Origin: Alkaliphilus pronyensis
Lineage (GTDB): Bacteria; Bacillota; Clostridia; Peptostreptococcales; Natronincolaceae
Length of the DNA stretch: 64,000 bases
Assembly (NCBI RefSeq): GCF_009017275.1
Contig: NZ_WBZC01000025.1
Span: 1 to 64,000 of the forward strand
Direction of reading: 5' to 3'
Shown: piece after piece, positions 43,287-63,560 of the stretch
Position numbering within the stretch: the stretch's first letter is position 1
How the letters are laid out: the number at the start of each line of letters is the position of its first letter
Notes under the pieces: generated by a model
What the model was told of the DNA's origin: nothing
Databases searched by the model: none
What the model saw: the letters and a program-made list of their open reading frames with translations, nothing else
Position numbers and translations under genes: made by a program

Positions 43287-43994
43287 CTAAAGCTTTGCAT
43301 ATTCAACAGATTTTTTCGCCAATAGTAATGTGGTATCAATATATCTATAATTGAATGCTGCAATGTCTTCATCCTTTTCTATAGCATTAAATAGCAAGGG
43401 TAATTCTGTGCATCCCAGAATGACTATTTCAATAGATTTTTCATTTAACTCCTTTAGAAAATTAATAAGCTCACTTTTATGATTTTGCTTGTTTCCCTTC
43501 TTTATTTTATATATAATTTCCTGTAGTTTTTTTTGATTCTCTTTTTTTAGTGCTATAACCTCTATGTTGTTATGGGCAAAATAATTTTCATATATTTTAG
43601 AGGAATAGGTACCCATTGTTGCCAGTAGCCCCACTTGCTTTGTGTTTTTGTAGTTGTTTTTTATAAAGTCGGCTGTAATTTGTACCATGTTTAAAATTGG
43701 AATATCTAGATATTCCTTTATATCTTCGTAAAAGCAGTGGGCAGTATTACAGGGCATTACAATAAAATCTGCCCCCATTAATTCTAACACTATAGCCGAC
43801 TTTATTAGATATTTCAAGGGACTAGGTCCATTTCCCAATAAATATTCTGTTCTATCTGGAATTAAAACATTGTTTTCAATTATTATTGGTATATGCTCTT
43901 GATCTGAACTACCATTGGTTAAATGAATTACTTTATTAAAGAAATTTGCAGTAGCCTCTGGTCCCATTCCACCAAGTATTCCAATTTTTTTCAT
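43287..43994 (-). CDS. Aspartate/glutamate racemase family protein
   Basis: The 235-residue protein has both catalytic cysteines of the PLP-independent racemase family: 'MPCNTAHCF' (about residue 83) and 'LGCTELPLL' (about 195). The N-terminus 'GILGGMGPEATANFF' is the family signature. It most resembles aspartate racemases of the YgeA/RacD type; substrate assignment between Asp, Glu and hydantoins is uncertain. It follows the dicarboxylate/amino acid symporter gene by 24 bases, so uptake and racemisation of an acidic amino acid are probably coupled. Confidence 0.88.
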   Translation of the reverse strand: MKKIGILGGMGPEATANFFNKVIHLTNGSSDQEHIPIIIENNVLIPDRTEYLLGNGPSPLKYLIKSAIVLELMGADFIVMPCNTAHCFYEDIKEYLDIPILNMVQITADFIKNNYKNTKQVGLLATMGTYSSKIYENYFAHNNIEVIALKKENQKKLQEIIYKIKKGNKQNHKSELINFLKELNEKSIEIVILGCTELPLLFNAIEKDEDIAAFNYRYIDTTLLLAKKSVEYAKL

Positions 43995-44018: not shown

Positions 44019-45248
44019 TTATGCTGAGGCCTCACTCTCATCTAAATCAGTAAGGTCATTTTCAGTAGCGGCAATAGCAACTGCAACCGCCGAATCACCT
44101 ACTACATTTACTGTAGTTCTAGCCATATCAAGAATTCTGTCTATACCAGCAATAAGTGCTGAGCCCTCTAAAGGTAATCCTACGGATGTTAAAACCATTG
44201 TTAGCATGATGAAGCCTGCTCCTGGTACACCTGCTGTGCCAATAGAGGCTAGGGTAGCTGTTAGAATAATAGACACCTGCTGTGCAATTGATAAATCTAA
44301 GCCATAGATTTGGGCAACGAACAATGCGCATACTCCTTGATATAGTGCTGTTCCATCCATATTTATGGTTGCCCCTAAGGGTAGTACAAAGCTGGAAACA
44401 GACTTAGAAACACCAAGATTATCTCTACAGGATTTTATTGTAACTGGTAGTGTGCCAGCACTGCTGCAGGTACTAAAGGCAACCGCCGCAGCCGGTAAAA
44501 CACCTTTGAAAAACTTAAGTGGATTCATCTTAGCAAATACCTTAACAATAGATGAATATACTATAACACTGTGTAGAAGTGCTCCAATATATACTGCAGC
44601 AATAACCTTAGCTAGTGGAAATAATACAGCAGGTCCATTCTGTGCCACTACAGGAGTTATTAATGCAAAAACACCAAAGGGTGCTAAATACATAATAAAT
44701 GCAGTAATCTTATACATTATTTCTGCTAAGCTATCAAAAAAGTTAAACACAGCCTTACCCTTTTCACCAATTGTTGTTATGGTAATTCCTAAGAATAGGG
44801 CAAAGGTAATAATCTGAAGCATATTACCGTTAACTAAACCCTGTAACGGATTTGTTGGTATAATTGCCAATAGGGTTTCAACTAATGGTGGTGCATTTCT
44901 GGCTTCTACTGTTACACCTTCTAATATCACCAAACCACTTCCAGGCTGAAACAAGTTACCCAGCACCAGGCCAATTGTAACAGCAACAGCTGTAGTTACG
45001 AGATAAAAAGCTACGGTTTTTCCTCCAACTCTCCCCAGCTTTTTAACATCACCTATACTTGCAGCACCTACAATTAAAGAGGAAAATACAAGAGGTACAA
45101 TAATCATCTTAATTAGATTTAAGAAAAGCTTACCAAAGGGTGCAATAAACTTTGTAGCAATTTCTGGGCTACCCCCCAAAATTAAACCAGCAATAATACC
45201 TAAAACTAAACCTATCAAGATCCTTGTTGTCAGTCTCATTTTTGCCAT
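44019..45248 (-). CDS. Dicarboxylate/amino acid:cation symporter (DAACS family)
   Basis: The 409-residue membrane protein has the Glt fold. The serine-rich motif is 'STCSSAGTLPVT' (hairpin 1), helix 7 carries 'NMDGTALYQGV', and hairpin 2 has 'GTAGVPGAGFIML'. These form the binding sites for glutamate/aspartate or C4-dicarboxylate and sodium or protons. An Arg in helix 8 is expected for amino acid binding; 'IDRILDMARTTVNVVGD' contains it. A strong ribosome-binding site (ggagg) precedes the ATG. It heads the operon with the racemase. Confidence 0.93.
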   Translation of the reverse strand: MAKMRLTTRILIGLVLGIIAGLILGGSPEIATKFIAPFGKLFLNLIKMIIVPLVFSSLIVGAASIGDVKKLGRVGGKTVAFYLVTTAVAVTIGLVLGNLFQPGSGLVILEGVTVEARNAPPLVETLLAIIPTNPLQGLVNGNMLQIITFALFLGITITTIGEKGKAVFNFFDSLAEIMYKITAFIMYLAPFGVFALITPVVAQNGPAVLFPLAKVIAAVYIGALLHSVIVYSSIVKVFAKMNPLKFFKGVLPAAAVAFSTCSSAGTLPVTIKSCRDNLGVSKSVSSFVLPLGATINMDGTALYQGVCALFVAQIYGLDLSIAQQVSIILTATLASIGTAGVPGAGFIMLTMVLTSVGLPLEGSALIAGIDRILDMARTTVNVVGDSAVAVAIAATENDLTDLDESEASA

Positions 45249-53135: not shown

Positions 53136-55115
53136 CTATATTTCAACATCTTCGAAGTTTTTCAAATATTCCCTTGCAGCTTCCTTATAGGTTAATCCAT
53201 TATGGACTTTATTTAAAGCTATATTTACATCCCTTACATTTAATCTAAAGCTCTTTATTAGGCTGTATAGTTCAGGGTTAGTATTCCTCAGCCCTTTAGC
53301 CACTAAAGTTGTACAGTATTCCTCTTCTCCAAAAACCATTTTATCATCATCAAGAAATTTCAAATCATATTTCCCAAACATCCAATGGGGCTGCCAGCCT
53401 GTTATAATTACCCATTCTCTCTTTTCAATTTTTTTCTTTAATATTTCCAGCATGGTTTCTTCATCACTATAGTCAACATCTAATCCAGCTAATGAGTATT
53501 GATTTAATACTTCTGATACTAGTCCACCAACAGCTGTTCGTCTTTGAACCGAGTATACTTTACTATTAAATTTTTTTAAGTTATTTTTTATTTCTCTAAT
53601 ACTGTTTATTTCTACATAGGAAGGTACTACAAATCCATACCTACAGCCCTTTAAATTAGCCCCTATTTCTTCTAGCTTAGCTCCATATTTTTTTGAGAAG
53701 CCTTTACAGGAGTAGGGCATCCAAGGAGAAACCGTTGCATCAACCATTCCTTCTGCAACACTACGCCATAGCTCCATACTGGGTACTAAAATCCCCTCGA
53801 GTGCTAAGCCTAGCCTTCGTCCCACTAGCTCCTTTAAAATTTCCATCTGTAATATTGATTCACTATATTCTGTATGGGCCAGCTTAACATATTTAAAGAC
53901 CTTAAGCTCTTTGCTAATATTTCCCACTATATTAATTAACTCACTTACTCTTTCATTAACTAGTGCAATAGCACCAGCTTGCTGTTGGGTGCTTGCACTT
54001 ACCTGCTGTGAGCTGGCAGCAGCCTCCTCAGTGACTGCCGATATATCTGAAACAATACTGTTTACATCCTCACTAAACCTAGTTAAGGTGTTTGTTTTGT
54101 TGTATATGTTATCCATCTGTTTATTAACTGATAGTACAGATGTGTTTATGAGATTAAAGGTTTCTTTTGTATAGCCTAAAGCCCTTCTTTGATCCTCAAC
54201 TACTTCATTACCCTTTGACACCTCTTGTACGATTGATTGTATTTCCTGTTGTATAGCTTCTACCAATTGATTTACCTGCTGTGCATAGTTTTTTGTGTTA
54301 TCTGCCAGCTTTCTAATCTCATCAGCTACAACCGCAAAGCCCTTTCCTGCTTCACCTGCCCGTGCTGCCTCGATAGCAGCATTTAATGCCAACAGATTTG
54401 TTTGCTCCGATACTGCATAAATGGTGTTTACTACAGTGTTTATTTCTAAAGAGGATTCTTCTAATTGGCTTACTCTTCCATTAATGTTCCGAAACATCAT
54501 AACATTATTTGCTATTTTAACATCTTGATCCTCTACTGCAATTTTTCCATTATCTGTTGCTTTTATAGATTCATCCACTAGTCTACGGATATTACCCACA
54601 TCATTATTAATGTCTTTGACTAAGCTATTAGTGTCAAAGGTTTTATTTGATATGTCACTTATCATATCTACTATATGAGCGTTTCCCTTTGCAACCTCCT
54701 CTACAGCAATACTTATTTGTGTTGCTGAGTTTTCTATGGAAAAAATATTATCCTGTACCATTAATCCCGTACATTCTGTTGTTCTAGTTATACCATGTAT
54801 TTTAGCAATAAGACTTCTAATTTTATCAGTTAATGCTATAATATTAGAATTTTGATGGTTACCATCATTACCTATAAGCTGTAGATCATTGTTTACAAGT
54901 TTTTGAATTATTTGTGCATCTTTATTTTTATTGATATTAACAAGTAGCAGTATACATAATATTGATAATCCTTGACTTAGCCCATATATAGACAAAACTT
55001 TAAGGCTAAATTTATCCACTAAAAATCCGTAGCTAATTCCATTAATTAAAAGTAAAAGCGATATTCCTAAAACTATTTTTATATTTTTGTATTTACTAAT
55101 AGTATTTTTTCCCAT
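53136..55115 (-). CDS. Chemoreceptor fused to a C-terminal glycine-betaine-binding (OpuAC-like) domain
   Basis: The 659-residue protein has two membrane helices (about residues 12-33 and 40-58) joined by only a few residues, so there is almost no outside domain. The methyl-accepting signalling region covers about 100-390, with the tip motif '[20 protein letters not shown]' near 232. From about 395 to the end it becomes an OpuAC-like substrate-binding domain: '[19 protein letters not shown]', 'ATVSPWMPY' and '[18 protein letters not shown]', with aromatic residues typical of the betaine cage. This places the ligand domain in the cytoplasm. The BCCT transporter gene is directly upstream. Confidence 0.88.
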
Positions 55116-55203: not shown

Positions 55204-56808
55204 CTAATTAGTTTCAGAAGCTGTTTCTTTAACGATTACTTCTTCGTCTATTTCTGCTGTTTCAGGACAGTTTACAACGTCGTATTTACCTTGTTTAATA
55301 ATCATATACATTGTTGTTCCACTTAATAGTATCATAAAGAATAGTATTGGGAACCCTGCTACAGTTGCAATTTGCTTCGTTGCATCAATACCACTAATTT
55401 CTGTACCTGCACTCAATATGTTTATGATAGCCATAGAGGACATAACTGCTCCCCAGAATAATTTCACCTTTGTAGGTGGCTCTGATCCTTCTGATAGGTT
55501 GGCTGTGGTTGACAAGGATGCAACTGTACTGGTCATTGAATCTGCCAAAGTAACAATTGACACAAATATTGCTAAAATAAATATTGCACTCAACAAGCCC
55601 GACATTGGGAAGTTACTGAGGAAGGCAAACACCGATACCTCTAATCCCGATTGCTGTATGGACTCCCATATACCAGCTCCATTTAACTCAAGGTGAATAG
55701 CTGAGCCTCCAAACACTGAGAACCAAAGTAATCCAAAGGTAGCAGGAACAATAACATTAACAAGCATAAACTGCTTAATGGTACGACCCTTTGAAAGTCT
55801 TGCCAAGAACATTCCTATTAGCGGTGCATATGCCAGCCATATTGCCCAATAGTAAATAGGCCACCATCTTGGCCAAGCTGAACCTTCTATAGGACTTAAG
55901 TAGTGGGTTCTAACAAAGAAGTTTTGAATGAAGTCCCCCACCGATTGGGTTCCAAAGGATAGGATAAACTGAGTAGGACCAACAATAAATATAAATACCA
56001 TCATGGCTAAAAACAGCTTTGAATTTTTATCTGATAGCCAACGAATTCCTTTATTTAATCCAGTATAACTAGAAATTACATAGGTGATAACTATTGCTAC
56101 AAGAATACCAACCCATAGACCTTTTCCTGCAGTTACACCTGTTAATACATTTAATCCACTACCTATTTGCATAGTTCCAACACCTAAAACTGCTGCAACT
56201 GCACCTGCCATTGCAAATAAGCATACGTTATCAACTATATCTCCAACGTATCCCCTTATTCTTTTTCCAAAGATGGGATAAAGGGTTGAGCTTACTTGAT
56301 ATGGAAGCCTCATGTTATATACTGCATATGCAATACCTATACCTGCAATTCCGTACATAGCATAGGGTATGTAGGTCCAATGGATGAAGGTTGTTGTCAT
56401 AGAAAACATTGCTGCTGCCTCTGACATTGGCTCTAATCCCAATGGGGGTGACATGAAGTGAGTAATAGGCTCTGCAATCCCCCAGAATAAAATACCAGTT
56501 GCAATACCCGCACATAGGGAAATTGCAAACCAGTTCCAGTTGCTTAGCTCTGGCTTTGCATCTTTTCCCCCAAGCTTAATATCTCCATATTTAGAAAACA
56601 TTAAATAAAGACACATCGCAAGGAAGATATTACCTGAAATTTGGAACAGCCAACCAAAGTTTACAAATGCAAATTCAACTATAGCATTCATACCCTGTAA
56701 AAATTTTGCCGGTGCCACTAATCCTACAATAATTGCTGAAAGAAAGATAAATGACATTGGTACAAAAATTGCCATTCTTAACTTAGCGTTACCATTTGTA
56801 GCTTTCAT
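55204..56808 (-). CDS. BCCT-family betaine/carnitine/choline transporter
   Basis: The 534-residue protein has about twelve hydrophobic helices. The family signature in helix 8 is visible ('RWWPIYYWAIWLAYAPLIG' then 'MFLARLSKGRTIKQF'), along with 'FIHWTYIPYAMYG' in the helix that forms the aromatic box. These carriers take up quaternary ammonium compounds with Na+ or H+ or by exchange. I used the ATG at 56808, seven bases after gggagg; a start at 56823 would overlap that site. The C-terminal tail is short and acidic, without the long osmosensing extension of BetP, suggesting a nutritional role. Confidence 0.92.
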   Translation of the reverse strand: MKATNGNAKLRMAIFVPMSFIFLSAIIVGLVAPAKFLQGMNAIVEFAFVNFGWLFQISGNIFLAMCLYLMFSKYGDIKLGGKDAKPELSNWNWFAISLCAGIATGILFWGIAEPITHFMSPPLGLEPMSEAAAMFSMTTTFIHWTYIPYAMYGIAGIGIAYAVYNMRLPYQVSSTLYPIFGKRIRGYVGDIVDNVCLFAMAGAVAAVLGVGTMQIGSGLNVLTGVTAGKGLWVGILVAIVITYVISSYTGLNKGIRWLSDKNSKLFLAMMVFIFIVGPTQFILSFGTQSVGDFIQNFFVRTHYLSPIEGSAWPRWWPIYYWAIWLAYAPLIGMFLARLSKGRTIKQFMLVNVIVPATFGLLWFSVFGGSAIHLELNGAGIWESIQQSGLEVSVFAFLSNFPMSGLLSAIFILAIFVSIVTLADSMTSTVASLSTTANLSEGSEPPTKVKLFWGAVMSSMAIINILSAGTEISGIDATKQIATVAGFPILFFMILLSGTTMYMIIKQGKYDVVNCPETAEIDEEVIVKETASETN

Positions 56809-56971
56809 TTTATTCCCTCCCAATCCAATTTTAAAACTAAAAATCTGAAAACCCTATCAATAATTAATTGTAGCTGAAATTTGTTTGTGTTACAAACGTT
56901 TTCATATTTGTGAATTTTCAAAATTTATTAGTTTGTATATATATTAACAGCATACCGTCCATAAAAAGTCG

Positions 56972-57013: not shown

Positions 57014-60000
57014 TTACTGCTTCTTTAGCTGATTTAAAAGGTTTACCTCATAGTATCCCCTTAGTTCTTTTAATATAGCTATACCTTCATTACAATAATG
57101 CTCATGGCTTTTTTCTATATAGGGAGCAAATATCCCCCTTAGTGCTTTGTTTTTGTCCATTTCCTTAGCTATCTCCCCCTTCACCCTAAGAACCAATGCA
57201 ATTTCATAGGGGCTTTTTAGTTTTTGGGAGTCGGCCTCTGCCTTCATTAAGGATTTTAACCCCTCTTCATACCTTTCCTCTTTAATTAATAGCAATGCTA
57301 AATGACCATATGCCATTGATCTTCCCCATAGATAGTCTATCTCTTTATATATTTTTAGTGCCCTATTGAAATATAGCTTTGCATTCACATAGTCTTTATC
57401 TGCGTAGCATGCCAAGCCAGCATTAGTATGAAAAATAGCTAAGCCCCTTAAAATCTTCTTATCATTACATATTGAAATAGCCCTCTTGTAATAATCAATT
57501 GCCTCTTTAAAATTTTGACTGTGTCTTTTACTTTCCCCAATGTAATTATATATTGCAGCAATATGAAGCAAGTATTTTTCTGGATATGGCAGGGTGTTAA
57601 ATATGTTTATGGATTCCTTTAGTATTGCTTCTCCCTCACTGTAAAGCCCCTGCATAATTTTTAAAGCACCCTTTAATCTATATAGTATAGCAGTTTCTTC
57701 TTTTTCGTCGCTTTCCTTTGCAATTAATAATGCATTTTCTATTAGCTCCTCCATTAGCACTATGTTTTGTGTGTTAATACAGTAATATATCATTTGTCTA
57801 TAGCCCTTAAGTGCTAATGCATATTCTTTAGATTCTATTGATCTACTAATGACCTTTTTTATATTTTTAATACCTTCATCGTAGTCACCTTGTATTATCA
57901 AAAATCTACCCGTCATTAAAAAGTAGGTTATTTGTATTTTGCTTACTTCCTCACCATATCCATTTATTACTATTACTTTGTCTATCAGCTGATGTATTTC
58001 CTTTAGCTTTTTTTTCACCTGTTCTTTACTTAAGTATAATAAGTCCTCAATTTTTCCGCTCATGGTGTTTATTACAGGGAATATTTCATGATTAAAGTCA
58101 AGATATTCTTCTAAATTTTTTATGTTGTATTTCAGAGCGGCTATCCAATTGCCACCATTATAGAAGTGATGGATTAGCTTTGAATATAAGAAAATATCTC
58201 TTTTATCTTTTTTTAGTTTCCCTTCTAGTAAATTTCCTATTTTTTGATGAAGTAGCTTTCTTCTTGATAGGGATAGTTGCATATATAGATATTCCCTAAG
58301 CTTTTGATGAGTGAAGGCTAATTCAACGTCTTGTGAGCCCTTTGACTCCTTTAGAATGTTTTTATTCTTTAACTCATCAATAATATCGATTATTTCTAAA
58401 TCATTTTTACCGCTTAATTTTTGTAGGTCTTCCAACTGAACACTGTCGAAATACACTGAGATAATATTTAATAGTTTTTTTGCTTCTTCAGAGATATTGA
58501 CAAACCTGCCTTTAAGAATGTCCTCCATATTGGAGGTTATATGTGTACTTTTATTGTTTTTTAGGTTATTAAGAAACTCCATTAGAAAAAAAGCATTACC
58601 TTCAGTTTCTGAGTATATTGTCTCCTGAAGTCCCCTATTGAACTGATAGTTAGGCAAAAGCTTCTTTGCAAACTCTATTGTTTCTTGCTTTTTAAAGCGT
58701 TCAATCATTAATTTCTTTAGTAAATTATGTCTGCCTAGCTGCAACATAAATGCCTCTGTATCTTTTCTGTGCTCGTTGCGGCTCGTTGCAAGTACAAGTA
58801 TAGTATTGTTTTTGTTTTTAAATATAAGATTTTTTAATAGGGTTATTGTCATTGTATCTGCCCATTGTATATCTTCGAAAACCAAAAACAGCTTTTTATC
58901 CTTAGAAACCCTTTCTAATATTTCAATTAGTGCATTCTCCAGAACTTGACACTTTAAATTATATAAATCTTCTTCAATATTAATAGAGCTATCGGTTGTA
59001 TAGCTTGAAAATGAGGGAAATATATGTCCAACTATCTTATTTAATCCCTTAGAAATAGGTATACTTTCTTCTTTAATTATAGCTGCTATTTGAGAAAAAA
59101 TTTCATTCCATGGCTTTAGAAAATAGTTTTCTTCTGCTTGGTAGCAATTTACAGTCATAAAGATGTTTTTGTTATCATTTTTGGTCTTTATAAAATATTC
59201 TAATAATTTGCTTTTACCGATTCCTGCTTCTCCAATTAATAACATCGATTGTGCTTCTCCATTTGAAATAAAGCTTTCATAATTTTCCTCTAAAAACAGA
59301 AGCTCTCTATTTCTACCATAGAAGAATTCGTCCTCTTTTTTGTTTATTGCCTCCCTTTGGAGCTTTTCTTTAATAATTGCATCATATACTTCAGTAGTTT
59401 TTTTATCCGGTGTAATCGATAACTCTTTTTTCAACAATTTAAGCAGCCTATTATATATATCAATTCCTTGATTAAACTTTCCCTGAGCTCTATAGGTCTT
59501 CATTAGCCTTCTATATGCTCTTTCATCAAACTCATCAATACTTATTAGTTGCTTGCAATATTCCTCTGTTTTATTAAAATTATTATTTTTAAAGGCTTTT
59601 TCAATTTCTAAATATATTTTATTTATATATATGTCTTTATGTTTGTCCCTTAAGGTGTACATCCACTCTTCAAATGCCTCTGCGTCTTTAATTAGGAAGC
59701 CCTCAAGTAGCTCTCCAGTATAATTAAACAGTGAATTGTCATCCTTGTGCCAGTTAAATTCATCAACGTCAATTTTAAATTGTATATCTGGATTAAGTGT
59801 TATAATTGATCTTTGTGGGGATATCAAAACATCCTCATTAAATATTTTTCTTATCATATATACAGCATTTCTCAAGTTTTTCTTTGCAATCTCTTCAGAA
59901 ACATCTCCCCAAAATAGATTAACTAAGGTTTCTCTCGAAGCACGTTTTTCTAATAATAGATAATAAAAAAGTGCCTCTGCTTTTTTATATGGGAAAATAA

Positions 60001-60061
60001 TATCTTCATCATTTTTCAATACCCTTGGATTTCCAAACAGCTTGGCAGTTATTAGAATCAC
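57014..60061 (-). CDS. Large BTAD / ATPase / TPR transcriptional regulator
   Basis: The 1015-residue protein has the build of SARP/MalT-like activators. Residues 1-95 form a winged-helix-like DNA-binding part ('KAEALFYYLLLEKRASRETL'), and about 95-245 the bacterial transcriptional activation domain with TPR-like helices. An NTPase follows (Walker A GEAGIGKSKLLEYF, about residue 277; 'LFLVFEDIQWAD' as Walker B). The last 350 residues contain TPR repeats ('AIYNYIGESKRHSQNFKEA', 'FHTNAGLACYADKDYVNAK'). The start is GTG after aaggggtg. It lies 205 bases upstream of the BCCT gene on the same strand and is a good candidate regulator of that cluster (inference). Confidence 0.88.
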   Translation of the reverse strand: MILITAKLFGNPRVLKNDEDIIFPYKKAEALFYYLLLEKRASRETLVNLFWGDVSEEIAKKNLRNAVYMIRKIFNEDVLISPQRSIITLNPDIQFKIDVDEFNWHKDDNSLFNYTGELLEGFLIKDAEAFEEWMYTLRDKHKDIYINKIYLEIEKAFKNNNFNKTEEYCKQLISIDEFDERAYRRLMKTYRAQGKFNQGIDIYNRLLKLLKKELSITPDKKTTEVYDAIIKEKLQREAINKKEDEFFYGRNRELLFLEENYESFISNGEAQSMLLIGEAGIGKSKLLEYFIKTKNDNKNIFMTVNCYQAEENYFLKPWNEIFSQIAAIIKEESIPISKGLNKIVGHIFPSFSSYTTDSSINIEEDLYNLKCQVLENALIEILERVSKDKKLFLVFEDIQWADTMTITLLKNLIFKNKNNTILVLATSRNEHRKDTEAFMLQLGRHNLLKKLMIERFKKQETIEFAKKLLPNYQFNRGLQETIYSETEGNAFFLMEFLNNLKNNKSTHITSNMEDILKGRFVNISEEAKKLLNIISVYFDSVQLEDLQKLSGKNDLEIIDIIDELKNKNILKESKGSQDVELAFTHQKLREYLYMQLSLSRRKLLHQKIGNLLEGKLKKDKRDIFLYSKLIHHFYNGGNWIAALKYNIKNLEEYLDFNHEIFPVINTMSGKIEDLLYLSKEQVKKKLKEIHQLIDKVIVINGYGEEVSKIQITYFLMTGRFLIIQGDYDEGIKNIKKVISRSIESKEYALALKGYRQMIYYCINTQNIVLMEELIENALLIAKESDEKEETAILYRLKGALKIMQGLYSEGEAILKESINIFNTLPYPEKYLLHIAAIYNYIGESKRHSQNFKEAIDYYKRAISICNDKKILRGLAIFHTNAGLACYADKDYVNAKLYFNRALKIYKEIDYLWGRSMAYGHLALLLIKEERYEEGLKSLMKAEADSQKLKSPYEIALVLRVKGEIAKEMDKNKALRGIFAPYIEKSHEHYCNEGIAILKELRGYYEVNLLNQLKKQ

Positions 60062-60268: not shown

Positions 60269-62413
60269 TTAATTTTCTAGTATATACATGGATAATAATA
60301 ATGTTCTTTCAATCAGCTCTCTTCTGTGTATTGCCTCATTGGGAGTATATAAACCTTTACTGGAGGGAGCAAAGCCACATACTACAGGGATTTTATTATT
60401 TATTTCACCAGCAGCCGTTGCAAGTAGGCTAGATTCTACTCCAAAGGGTATATTCCACTTTTCTGCAATAGTCTTAACCTTATTGATTATTTTATTATTA
60501 TTGCTTTGAATAAAGGGAGGGCGTTCCACCATTTTTTCAATATATGACTGTATTCCTTTAGAATTTGACTTAAATATTTTGGAAATCTGCTTTTCAGCTT
60601 CATTTGCTAATTTCTCGTCTACGAATGTAATGTACAGGGTTGCACGTACCCTATGGGGCAGAAGTACGCTATACCTTTCGGAGTGTACATCCTGTATAGC
60701 AACTGTCAACTTTTTGTCCCAACTGCTTATATCCTTTAGCATTTCTGCTTTTTTTATGAAGTAGCTTAACACGTCCATTTGGCTAGAGCGATAGCCTACC
60801 CTCAGTGAATCCCCTTCAACAATTACGCTGTATTTCTTTGAGCCACGTCGTTGATGTACCACCTTTCCCCCCTTAAAGCCTGGTTGGAGAACTATTACCT
60901 CCTTTACATTTTGAGACAGTTTTTTTAATACTCCATTACTATATCTCATTCCTCTACCTTCATCTGAATAGAGGAAAATAGCAATTTTCTTTTTATCTAG
61001 GTTGTTTATTTCCTTTAATGCATCTAAAGCACTTAATAAAGTAACTAGTCCTCCCCTGCTGACTGCTATGCCTTCGCCATATATCCACTCCTGTTCAGTT
61101 CTATATGGAATTGGAAAACCAGATCTATTACCTGGTATATCAATAGGCAGCACCAATAACAAGCCATCCTTTAGCCCTGCCTCTGTTTCCCATGTCCAAG
61201 CTGAATTATTATTGGTATAATCCTCCACCAGCCTTAAGCCCATTTGCTTTAGCCTATCCTCCAGCCTTCTTAATACAGTGCTGATACCAACATAGTCCTC
61301 TGTCCAGCTGGGGATATTTGTCCATGTTTTTAGCTCAGCTTCTATTTTATCTCTATTTTGGGTTATTATATTGAATAAATCCATTGTTTTATCTGGTACA
61401 TCCTCGCTAATATTGTCTATTATATACGGTCCAAAGTATCTTTCACAGGCTACCTCTACTAGTTTATTCATGAGATCAACATAGTTTAAGCCTATTTGCT
61501 TTGCAGCAAAAACAAAGGATCCATCGGCTCCTAAGCTTGCCATTGAATTTACTTCTAAAATATATGGGTTACCGTCCTTGTCTATTCTAAAATCCACCCT
61601 TGCACTATCGTAGCAGCCTAAAGCCTCGAAGGTATCAATAGCCAGCCTTTGAATACCTTGAGTTTCCTCCTGGGATAAAGGTGCAGGACATATTTTTTCT
61701 ACTTTTCTTCCACTTATATTCTTTTTATCCTCATAGGTATACACCTGTGGTCCGTCTCCAAAAACCAATTCTACTGGTGGTAAAGCCTGGACGGGATTAT
61801 TCCCTAATAAAGCTACGTTAACTTCTCTACCTTCAATAAACTCCTCAACTAGAGTTGATGAATTAAAGGTGTCATAAATTGTTTTTACTCCCTCCCTTAA
61901 TTCTTCTTCATTATGTACTATTCTTAGTCCAAAAGAAACAGCCTCAGCTTTTGGCTTAACAATAAGTGGATATCTTAAATTATCTGTAATATCTGAATCT
62001 GGCTTATCCATTACTGTAAATTTAGGAGTAGGTAATCCTTTTTGAATTAAAATCATTTTAGTTACGATTTTATCTAATGCAATGGCATGGGTTTCAGGAC
62101 CAGAGCCAACATATGGTATTCCCAGCATCTCAAGTATCCCTGGTACATGCATATATCTACCCTTCCCCTGTATCCCATAGCTAAGATTCAGTACAAGACC
62201 AGGTCTTTCTCCCGATATAACCGATGGCATAAACTTCTCAAGCTTAGATATAATATTTTTATCTCCTTCAAAGGTTTTAACCTGGTGTCCACCAGCTGTT
62301 AAAGCCTCCTTTATGTTCTTAATAGTCTCCAATCCATATTTTTCACGGTTTAAGGTGCCAAAAAGATTAATAACTGCTTGGCTTTCTCTGTTATAAACAA
62401 TGGCAATTTTCAT
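60269..62413 (-). CDS. ATP-grasp (D-Ala-D-Ala ligase-like) protein fused to a metal-less M20 peptidase fold
   Basis: The 714-residue protein has two parts. Residues 1-330 are an ATP-grasp ligase like D-alanine-D-alanine ligase ('YVGSGPETHAIALDKIVTK', 'YPLIVKPKAEAVSFG', 'ARVDFRIDKDGNPYILEVN'). Residues about 350-714 follow the CPG2-like M20 carboxypeptidase fold, including the small lid domain. All five metal-ligand positions are changed: the HxD site reads LPID, the bridging Asp site GIAVSRGG, the DEE site SDEGRG, the fourth ligand LQPG, and the last His site GLYTPNE. It probably makes an amide bond and uses the second domain for binding only (inference). No linked peptide-biosynthesis genes are visible. 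Confidence 0.85.
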   Translation of the reverse strand: MKIAIVYNRESQAVINLFGTLNREKYGLETIKNIKEALTAGGHQVKTFEGDKNIISKLEKFMPSVISGERPGLVLNLSYGIQGKGRYMHVPGILEMLGIPYVGSGPETHAIALDKIVTKMILIQKGLPTPKFTVMDKPDSDITDNLRYPLIVKPKAEAVSFGLRIVHNEEELREGVKTIYDTFNSSTLVEEFIEGREVNVALLGNNPVQALPPVELVFGDGPQVYTYEDKKNISGRKVEKICPAPLSQEETQGIQRLAIDTFEALGCYDSARVDFRIDKDGNPYILEVNSMASLGADGSFVFAAKQIGLNYVDLMNKLVEVACERYFGPYIIDNISEDVPDKTMDLFNIITQNRDKIEAELKTWTNIPSWTEDYVGISTVLRRLEDRLKQMGLRLVEDYTNNNSAWTWETEAGLKDGLLLVLPIDIPGNRSGFPIPYRTEQEWIYGEGIAVSRGGLVTLLSALDALKEINNLDKKKIAIFLYSDEGRGMRYSNGVLKKLSQNVKEVIVLQPGFKGGKVVHQRRGSKKYSVIVEGDSLRVGYRSSQMDVLSYFIKKAEMLKDISSWDKKLTVAIQDVHSERYSVLLPHRVRATLYITFVDEKLANEAEKQISKIFKSNSKGIQSYIEKMVERPPFIQSNNNKIINKVKTIAEKWNIPFGVESSLLATAAGEINNKIPVVCGFAPSSKGLYTPNEAIHRRELIERTLLLSMYILEN

Positions 62414-62618: not shown

Positions 62619-62664
62619 AATAATCATTTAAACATAAGGCTCTGTACACGATACATGTTGTTGA

Positions 62665-63560
62665 TATGGGCATACTATTGATATAAAGTGTTCTCATTGT
62701 AAATCCTTAGTGGTAATTAAAAATGGCAATATTAAGGACAAGCAAAGATATCGTTGCAAAGAGTGTACCAAGACCTTTTCTGATACAACCCTCACCCCTT
62801 TTGCATATAGTAAAAAAGCTTTTCTAAGTGGGAAGAATATGCCAATTGTTTTGTTGAAGGGTATTCACTTAGAAAAACAGCTATGATTGTCGGTATTAGC
62901 TTTAAACAGCCTTTATTTGGCGACATAAAATTCTTGATGCAATCAGACTAAGTGGGCGTGATTATCTTAGCGGAATAGTGGAAGCTGATGAAACTTTATT
63001 CCTAGAATCCTTTAATGTCAATCACAAGAAAAGCAAGACATTTACAATGCCTAGACCACCAAGAAAGGGTGGTGGAAAGTCAAATTATAGAGGCATAAGC
63101 CATGAACAAATATGTGTCCTTTTTGCAATGGATAGAAAATCGAGTGATTGGAGAACCTGCTTGCAAAGGGCGTATTTCTCATGAGCAAATTAATGATATC
63201 CTTAATGGACACATAAGCTTTACCTCTATCCTTTGCACAGATAAACATAGAAGCTATATAGGGTTTGCTAAAAAGGTAGGTCTTGACCTAAAACAAGTAA
63301 AGTCAGCTGCTAAAGTAAATGGGATATACCATATTCAACACATAAATTCTTTGCACAGCAGACTAAAGGGTTGGATGAGGGATTTTAAAGGAGTATCTAC
63401 AAAGTATCTAATTAACTATCTATACTGGTTTATATTTCTTGAAAGCATCAAGAAAAGCGATATGGAGAGTCAAATTAATCAACTTTTTAAAGCGTGTTCT
63501 GAATTTGACTTTAGAGAGACTACCAAAACCCTTAGAAAGCGCCCTCATAGTATTGCATAA
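62665..63560 (+). pseudogene. Frameshifted IS1595-family (ISXO2-like) transposase
   Basis: Joining frames restores a transposase with an N-terminal zinc ribbon (CSHC ... CKEC, from 62689), a helix-turn-helix ('GYSLRKTAMIVGISFKTAF') and the DDE-type start 'GIVEADETLFLE' (about 62970). The later part reads 'TSILCTDKHRSYIGFAKK', and the end is 'TLRKRPHSIA'. Three breaks are visible: near 62822, near 62908 (one A lost in a run of A) and near 63143. No ATG fits the 5' end. Clear terminal inverted repeats were not found. The element is dead. Confidence 0.85.

Follow-up and report, generated by a model that had tools for sequence, protein, structure and literature searches.

An ATP-grasp ligase fused to an M20-like pseudo-peptidase that lacks its metal ligands is found across several bacterial phyla, often beside GGT- and N-formylglutamate-amidohydrolase-family genes

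Introduction

NAGGN-type systems bring together an ATP-grasp/GNAT ligase, an AsnO-like amidotransferase and an M42 peptidase, and their product is a peptide osmolyte. These systems thus offer a genetic link, in bacteria under salt stress, between an ATP-grasp ligase and an enzyme that cleaves amides. Carnosine synthase and carnosinase are separate proteins that act on dipeptides, and the M20 member of the pair is active. The gene contexts of amidoligases were reportedly surveyed by Iyer et al. in 2009.

Here we describe a gene from Alkaliphilus pronyensis in which a Ddl-like ATP-grasp ligase and an M20-like pseudo-peptidase form a single protein. It lies in a 64,000-nucleotide stretch of DNA, which was analysed as a whole and is referred to below as the window. 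Neither the domain families nor the concept of a pseudo-enzyme is new, but the open-access literature yielded no account of this fusion or its operon; subscription papers lay largely outside the search, and an earlier account may exist there. Likewise, no open-access paper was found that ties NAGGN, ATP-grasp enzymes and a peptidase together. A term search of a 2024 review of pseudo-metallopeptidases (PMC11266112) returned "M20" only in the DOI strings of the reference list, with no M20 pseudo-peptidase.

Results

Both halves of the fusion are predicted to be complete folds

The fusion gene (60269..62413, minus strand) is one open frame of 714 codons with an ATG start. Residues 1-328 form the ligase half (61430..62413, minus strand), as delimited by Pfam, alignment A3 and structure matching, and residues 338-714 form the M20-like half (60272..61402, minus strand), for which Pfam, the structural model, structure matching and hhalign all indicated a CPG2 fold with its lid domain. 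In Pfam searches, Dala_Dala_lig_C matched residues 124-320 (1e-38) and Peptidase_M20 matched residues 429-709 (5.4e-10; 39.9 bits against a curated cut-off of 24.6). The dimerisation domain in the second half was detected only below threshold.

An AlphaFold2 model of the full-length protein, built from an alignment of 68 sequences, had a mean pLDDT of 88.4 and a pTM of 0.79. Foldseek ranked carboxypeptidase G2 first and Pseudomonas aeruginosa Ddl next for this model, and human CN1 and CN2 were among the structural matches. Using VIA-align, residues 339-714 matched 1cg2 with a Z-score of 38.7 (369 aligned residues, rmsd 4.4), and residues 1-324 on DdlB (8evz) with a Z-score of 33.5 (293 aligned residues, rmsd 2.3). 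These matches show that both halves, as predicted models, are complete folds. The initial annotation, made from the sequence alone, had described an ATP-grasp ligase fused in an intact frame to an M20 peptidase fold of CPG2-like architecture, and this description holds at the fold level in every part.

The ligase half is probably active, but probably not toward D-alanine

Nine residues of the ligase half (K153, S160, E190, E197, K230, R272, D274, E287 and N289) are invariant in alignment A3. By equivalence to E. coli DdlB, we take them to be putative ATP-, magnesium- and oxyanion-interacting residues, and they align with the residues that bind these groups in solved Ddl enzymes, including PaDdlA. 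However, the best NCBIfam model, NF002378, scored 184.2 bits against a curated cut-off of 243, and the first 90 residues, corresponding to the N-terminal substrate lobe, aligned poorly with Ddl. In the HMM alignment to PaDdlA, other residues stand opposite the acceptor loop PGMTATS, and the YEHKY motif lacks its Tyr. Judging from these residue patterns, the ligase half is probably an active ligase and probably does not make D-Ala-D-Ala. The window genome also carries a separate 382-aa Ddl-like frame (G000:C1).

Ligases of this kind also occur without the M20 half. Genome G741 has a member of this subfamily, 330 aa long, as a free-standing ligase (L196:7994-8986; 551 bits to the fusion profile) next to a radical-SAM protein (PF08497). 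The existence of such a protein indicates that the ligase can function by itself. Four loci (L039, L041, L042 and L013) hold Ddl-like ligases that also stand alone but are more remote, with about 35-40% identity, each adjoining a further protein and an octopine-dehydrogenase-family protein, which was assigned by Pfam at L039 and by eye at the other three. These loci appear, in part by eye, to form a recurrent three-gene set; at L039 the further protein, of 636 aa, had no Pfam match. Another stand-alone Ddl-like ligase adjoins a peptidase S58 (DmpA-type) gene in L010, as assigned by Pfam, and a similar frame was seen by eye in L012.

All five metal ligands of the M20 half are replaced

We take the metal ligands of CPG2 to be H112, D141, E176, E200 and H385, with D114 and the general base E175 as neighbours. 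An HMM alignment to CPG2 placed H112, D114, D141, E175, E176 and E200 opposite P423, D425, V451, E485, G486 and Q510 of the window protein. H385 was placed opposite Y689 by hhalign against five ordinary M20 proteins of the same taxonomic order, with an unchanged register (probability 99.7 over 356 columns). The ligands His112, Asp141 (the bridging ligand), Glu176, Glu200 and His385 are thus replaced by P423 (61145..61147), V451 (61061..61063), G486 (60956..60958), Q510 (60884..60886) and Y689 (60347..60349), all on the minus strand. The equivalents of D114 and of the general base E175 are kept as D425 (61139..61141, minus strand) and E485 (60959..60961, minus strand). The lid His, found in 19/19 ordinary M20 proteins, is replaced by Arg538.

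We compared 18 of the 68 fusions in A3 with 19 ordinary M20 proteins in a joint MAFFT alignment. The ordinary proteins had H/D/E/E-or-D/H at the five ligand columns in all 19 cases, and none of the 18 fusions had D at 451, E at 486 or E/D at 510. The idea that the metal ligands persist at shifted positions found no support at the sequence-profile level, as neither MAFFT nor hhalign gave any other register. The intact controls and the unchanged register indicate that the initial annotation was right about exactly these five substitutions (His to Pro, Asp to Val, Glu to Gly, Glu to Gln and His to Tyr).

Ligand loss is a trait of the whole fusion family

The state of the site was then followed in 83 full-length rows, made up of the window protein and 82 of 91 examined loci (78 distinct sequences; short or interrupted loci were excluded). 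None of the five ligands was kept in 56 of these rows, one was kept in 24 and two in 3, and no row kept more than two. Asp451 and Glu486 are absent from all 83, and so is E/D at 510. Position 486 is almost always Gly (G 81, S 2). His remains at 423 in 25 rows (P 52, H 25, S 4, A 1, Q 1) and at 689 in 5 rows (Y 60, F 11, H 5, G 5, N 1, D 1). The named-genome loci were the best 80 of 121 from a profile of the M20 half, and the collection patterns included DEGxGMRYS, which favours G at 486. Glu486 and Asp451 were likewise absent from all 14 fusions obtained by profile searches without this bias. Two of these came from an order search (both from genome G187, and both already counted in the 83 rows) and 12 from a phylum search, some of which may come from the same genomes as named loci; L179 was removed by a start-motif filter, and L187 is truncated.

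Three of the 14 profile-search fusions form a sister clade (L197-L199) with E451, D485, W or T486, and K or Q510. Since the site is degenerate in this clade through other residues, its loss is general and the replacement residues are clade-specific. The clade may reflect ligand loss at an earlier stage or along a path of its own. Its members also keep Lys453, have D679 as in some ordinary M20 proteins, and have N or A at 587.

Loss of the metal site is a family trait, neither chance nor a local accident. The fusion itself is an old family across several phyla, which adds to the initial annotation; that annotation had proposed a search for the same fusion elsewhere and for the state of its ligands.

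The M20 half is under purifying selection, and its conserved positions are concentrated in the old pocket loops

We next considered whether the M20 half is maintained. Its dN/dS was 0.04-0.16 in 8 of 12 close pairs, those for which it was computable; in the remaining pairs, including window-L043, synonymous sites were saturated and gave no dN/dS. The M20 half is under purifying selection, and its frame is full length in 82/91 examined loci, the rest being cut or interrupted. The half diverges faster than the ligase half, with a median identity to the window protein of 49% versus 69%. A decaying remnant, in which the M20 half drifts after loss of function, would match the loss of five of five ligands and a window genome that lost or never had operon partners, but it is highly improbable given the intact frames, the low dN/dS, the high model confidence and the fusion-specific invariant residues.

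Conservation within the M20 half is unevenly placed. We chose 60 of its 377 residues as the old active-site loops, and 14 of the 26 positions conserved at >=97% fall within them (p 3e-6). Among these 14, E447, Y482, G486, C679, G680 and R697 are uncommon in ordinary M20 proteins. D425, E485, C679 (60377..60379, minus strand), E693 and R697 (60323..60325, minus strand) are invariant in the 83 rows. Outside the counted loops, R523 and the lid-domain residue H587 (60653..60655, minus strand; 82/83) are also fusion-specific. C679, H587, R523 and R697 are missing from the 19 ordinary M20 proteins, 17 of which have D or N in place of C679. This pattern fits a rebuilt binding pocket and not a drifting remnant.

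With its metal site gone family-wide and its full-length half folded in the model and under purifying selection, the protein bears out the earlier reading of a pseudo-enzyme. The accompanying proposal that the half serves for binding gains indirect support from the crowding of conserved positions in the old active-site loops.

The main rival to a binding-only M20 half is that the old pocket has been rebuilt as a new catalytic or single-metal site, putatively formed by D425, E485, C679 and H587 with R522/R523/R697. Such a site might carry out, for example, a thiol-dependent acyl transfer or an amidase step on the ligase product. The near-complete conservation of D425, E485, C679 and H587, the absence of four of the fusion-specific residues from ordinary M20 proteins and the exchange of the usual D/N for C679 all speak for it. 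In the three rows of the sister clade, however, residue 679 is Asp and residue 587 is Asn or Ala, so that not every branch of the wider family needs the residue set. On these residue patterns, we consider a rebuilt site possible but unlikely.

The M20 half could also be a structural scaffold alone, serving ligase dimerisation and stability and holding no ligand. Pseudo-peptidases often act via protein-protein contacts (PMC11266112), and the faster divergence of this half would suit such a role. A scaffold accounts poorly, however, for conservation that crowds the old pocket loops and for the invariance of the charged residues D425, E485, E693 and R697, and we regard it as a doubtful explanation. 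A half that binds a ligand in the old pocket is the reading that we prefer.

The fusion gene is often accompanied by GGT- and FGase-family genes

Among the best 80 of 121 loci, a GGT-family gene on the same strand was found at 64 and an N-formylglutamate-amidohydrolase (FGase)-family gene at 57. Both partners were present at 52 of these 80 loci, at least one at 69 and neither at 11. Partners were searched for in the fetched stretch around each locus and were usually directly adjacent; because several loci end at contig ends, the counts are lower bounds. The order GGT-fusion-FGase was seen in many Bacillota. Outside Bacillota, most loci have the order fusion-GGT-FGase, which a single group of Bacillota shares. 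The partners were assigned by Pfam to PF01019 (2.5e-120) and PF05013 (5e-35).

In alignments, both partners retain their likely catalytic residues. The nucleophile Thr347 of the GGT-like proteins, which aligns with the start of the small subunit in solved GGTs, is present in 60/60, and H15, D40, H137 and E234 of the FGase-like proteins are each conserved in >=97% of 58. No solved relative of the FGase partner was found by sequence at E 1. We take N411 and D433 of E. coli GGT to be gamma-glutamyl-binding residues. In the GGT-like partner, the first corresponds to E367 in 60/60 and the second to A389 in 58/60. A gamma-glutamyl product is therefore not implied, and the deduction of such a product from the GGT partner was dropped. 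Since the start of the protein also shows no obvious signal peptide by eye, the GGT-like partner is likely a cytoplasmic amidase of other specificity.

Co-occurrence was also examined across the phylum, in 398 genomes. Of these, 15 have the fusion; we found a close GGT in 7 (5 shared with the fusion) and a close FGase in 9 (5 shared), giving Fisher p-values of 7e-7 for GGT and 4e-6 for FGase, with cut-offs of 600 bits (GGT) and 250 bits (FGase) that were placed at gaps in the score lists after inspection. The fusion count excludes G741, which has the ligase alone, and includes G545, in which the frame is cut by the contig end. The close GGT type is missing in 10/15 fusion genomes. Conversely, GGT-like and FGase-like genes lie side by side in genome G626 (L205:5946-8384), in which no fusion gene was found genome-wide at E 1e-100. 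The window gene has no adjacent GGT or FGase partner within the window, no FGase was found in the window genome, and the sole GGT homologue of that genome is distant (29% identity) and on another contig. The linkage of the fusion to GGT and FGase is strong, though not obligatory.

Hosts and surroundings of the fusion gene

Counted by hand, 25 of the best 80 of 121 loci carry the sample codes CSSed, T1Sed, T3Sed, B1Sed or CSBr. In PMC6146748, CSSed10, CSSed11, T3Sed10, B1Sed10 and T1Sed designate soda-lake samples. The 2016 sample codes were taken as soda-lake from the same naming. By the same hand count of the best 80 of 121, 25/80 loci belong to named genera that are alkaliphilic, halophilic or marine, namely Alkaliphilus, Evansella, Salipaludibacillus, Alkalicoccus, Alkalihalobacterium, Litchfieldia, Heliorestis, Anaerotalea, Desulfoluna, Desulfonema and Thiohalocapsa. 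A link of the fusion to haloalkaliphilic hosts is suggestive only, as the host counts come from matched loci alone.

In the window, the fusion gene lies near a BCCT betaine-type transporter (55204-56823), which is beside a chemoreceptor (53136-55115; Pfam match) whose MCP signalling domain is followed by an OpuAC domain of the glycine-betaine-binding kind. The chemoreceptor is possibly a cytoplasmic osmolyte sensor. This neighbourhood agrees with a salt-related role of the fusion but proves nothing.

Directly downstream of the fusion gene, on the same strand, is a gene for a 1015-aa BTAD/AAA/TPR regulator (57014-60061). In another genome (L200), a 913-aa frame adjoining the fusion resembles, by eye, a MalT/LuxR-type regulator. 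Just upstream of the window gene, positions 62640-63560 hold several short plus-strand frames, the longest at 63102-63560, which look by eye like the remains of a broken insertion-sequence transposase; the frame starting at 63102 had no Pfam match at 1e-5. Elsewhere in the window, an Asp/Glu/hydantoin racemase-family gene (43287-43994) stands beside a 409-aa frame (44019-45248) that resembles, by eye, a dicarboxylate/amino-acid symporter.

Discussion

We propose, with a probability of about 0.6, that the fusion combines an active amide ligase with an M20 half that is a binding-only pseudo-peptidase. The ligase half, of the Ddl type, would activate a carboxylate with ATP and join it to an amine, which is probably not D-alanine. 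The M20 half would no longer cut, but would hold a peptide or a building block in its old pocket, and may act either as a sensor of the product or as a module that delivers substrate or dimerises the enzyme. Where present, the GGT- and FGase-family partners may trim or recycle the ligase product. The folds (in predicted models), the lost metal site, the selection and the gene neighbourhood were observed; what the enzyme ligates, the binding of product or substrate in the pocket, and recycling by the partners are inferred.

Because the fusion is met repeatedly among bacteria that favour salt or alkali, in many cases with two amide-cleaving enzymes next to it, we think that its dead half probably serves a purpose and is not a remnant in decay. 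Because the hosts among the named matches are mostly salt- or alkali-loving, it is suggested that the product could be a peptide made under such conditions, and it might be an osmolyte with glutamate or glutamine in it. The idea of a stress-related peptide in haloalkaliphiles is no more than a lead. In its widest form, the proposal would be a cross-phylum, mainly haloalkaliphilic peptide system. The ligase would make a small amide for use under salt/alkali stress, the fused ex-peptidase would bind it in a pocket rebuilt around D425/E485/C679/H587/R697 and tune or complete its synthesis, and the cytoplasmic GGT- and FGase-family amidases would recycle it. We offer this combined picture tentatively, as one that is less probable than its failure.

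The fusion combines textbook families in such a way that a peptidase is built permanently into an enzyme that makes peptides. Should the dead half bind the product, the protein would be a natural model of a degradative fold turned into a sensor for the reverse reaction. If the cross-phylum system exists as outlined, it would provide an M20 pseudo-peptidase that has taken on a regulatory task or a new catalytic one, together with an undescribed solute pathway. The three-gene neighbourhood, which occurs in named Evansella, Salipaludibacillus and Alkalicoccus strains, offers immediate genetic access to a possibly undescribed metabolite of bacteria that favour salt and alkali.

The fusion can be set against four known systems. 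With Ddl (PF07478; NCBIfam NF002378/TIGR01205), it shares the ATP-grasp fold and the nine putative ATP-, magnesium- and oxyanion-interacting residues, but it differs in its sub-cut-off score, its poor fit in the N-terminal lobe, its acceptor loop as aligned and the added M20 half. With CPG2 and the M20 metallopeptidases (PF01546; nearest NCBIfam NF005602, PRK07338), it shares a complete fold with the lid and the equivalents of D114 and E175, whereas the window protein has 0/5 metal ligands and Arg538 in place of the lid His. Like the NAGGN systems described above, the fusion locus joins an ATP-grasp ligase to an amide-cleaving partner, but the ligase subfamily and the partner families differ, and no recurrent AsnO-like amidotransferase or GNAT neighbour was seen by eye among the largest neighbour clusters. 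Carnosine synthase and carnosinase likewise bring together an ATP-grasp ligase and an M20 protein; in the fusion, the two are joined in a single chain and the M20 half is predicted to be dead.
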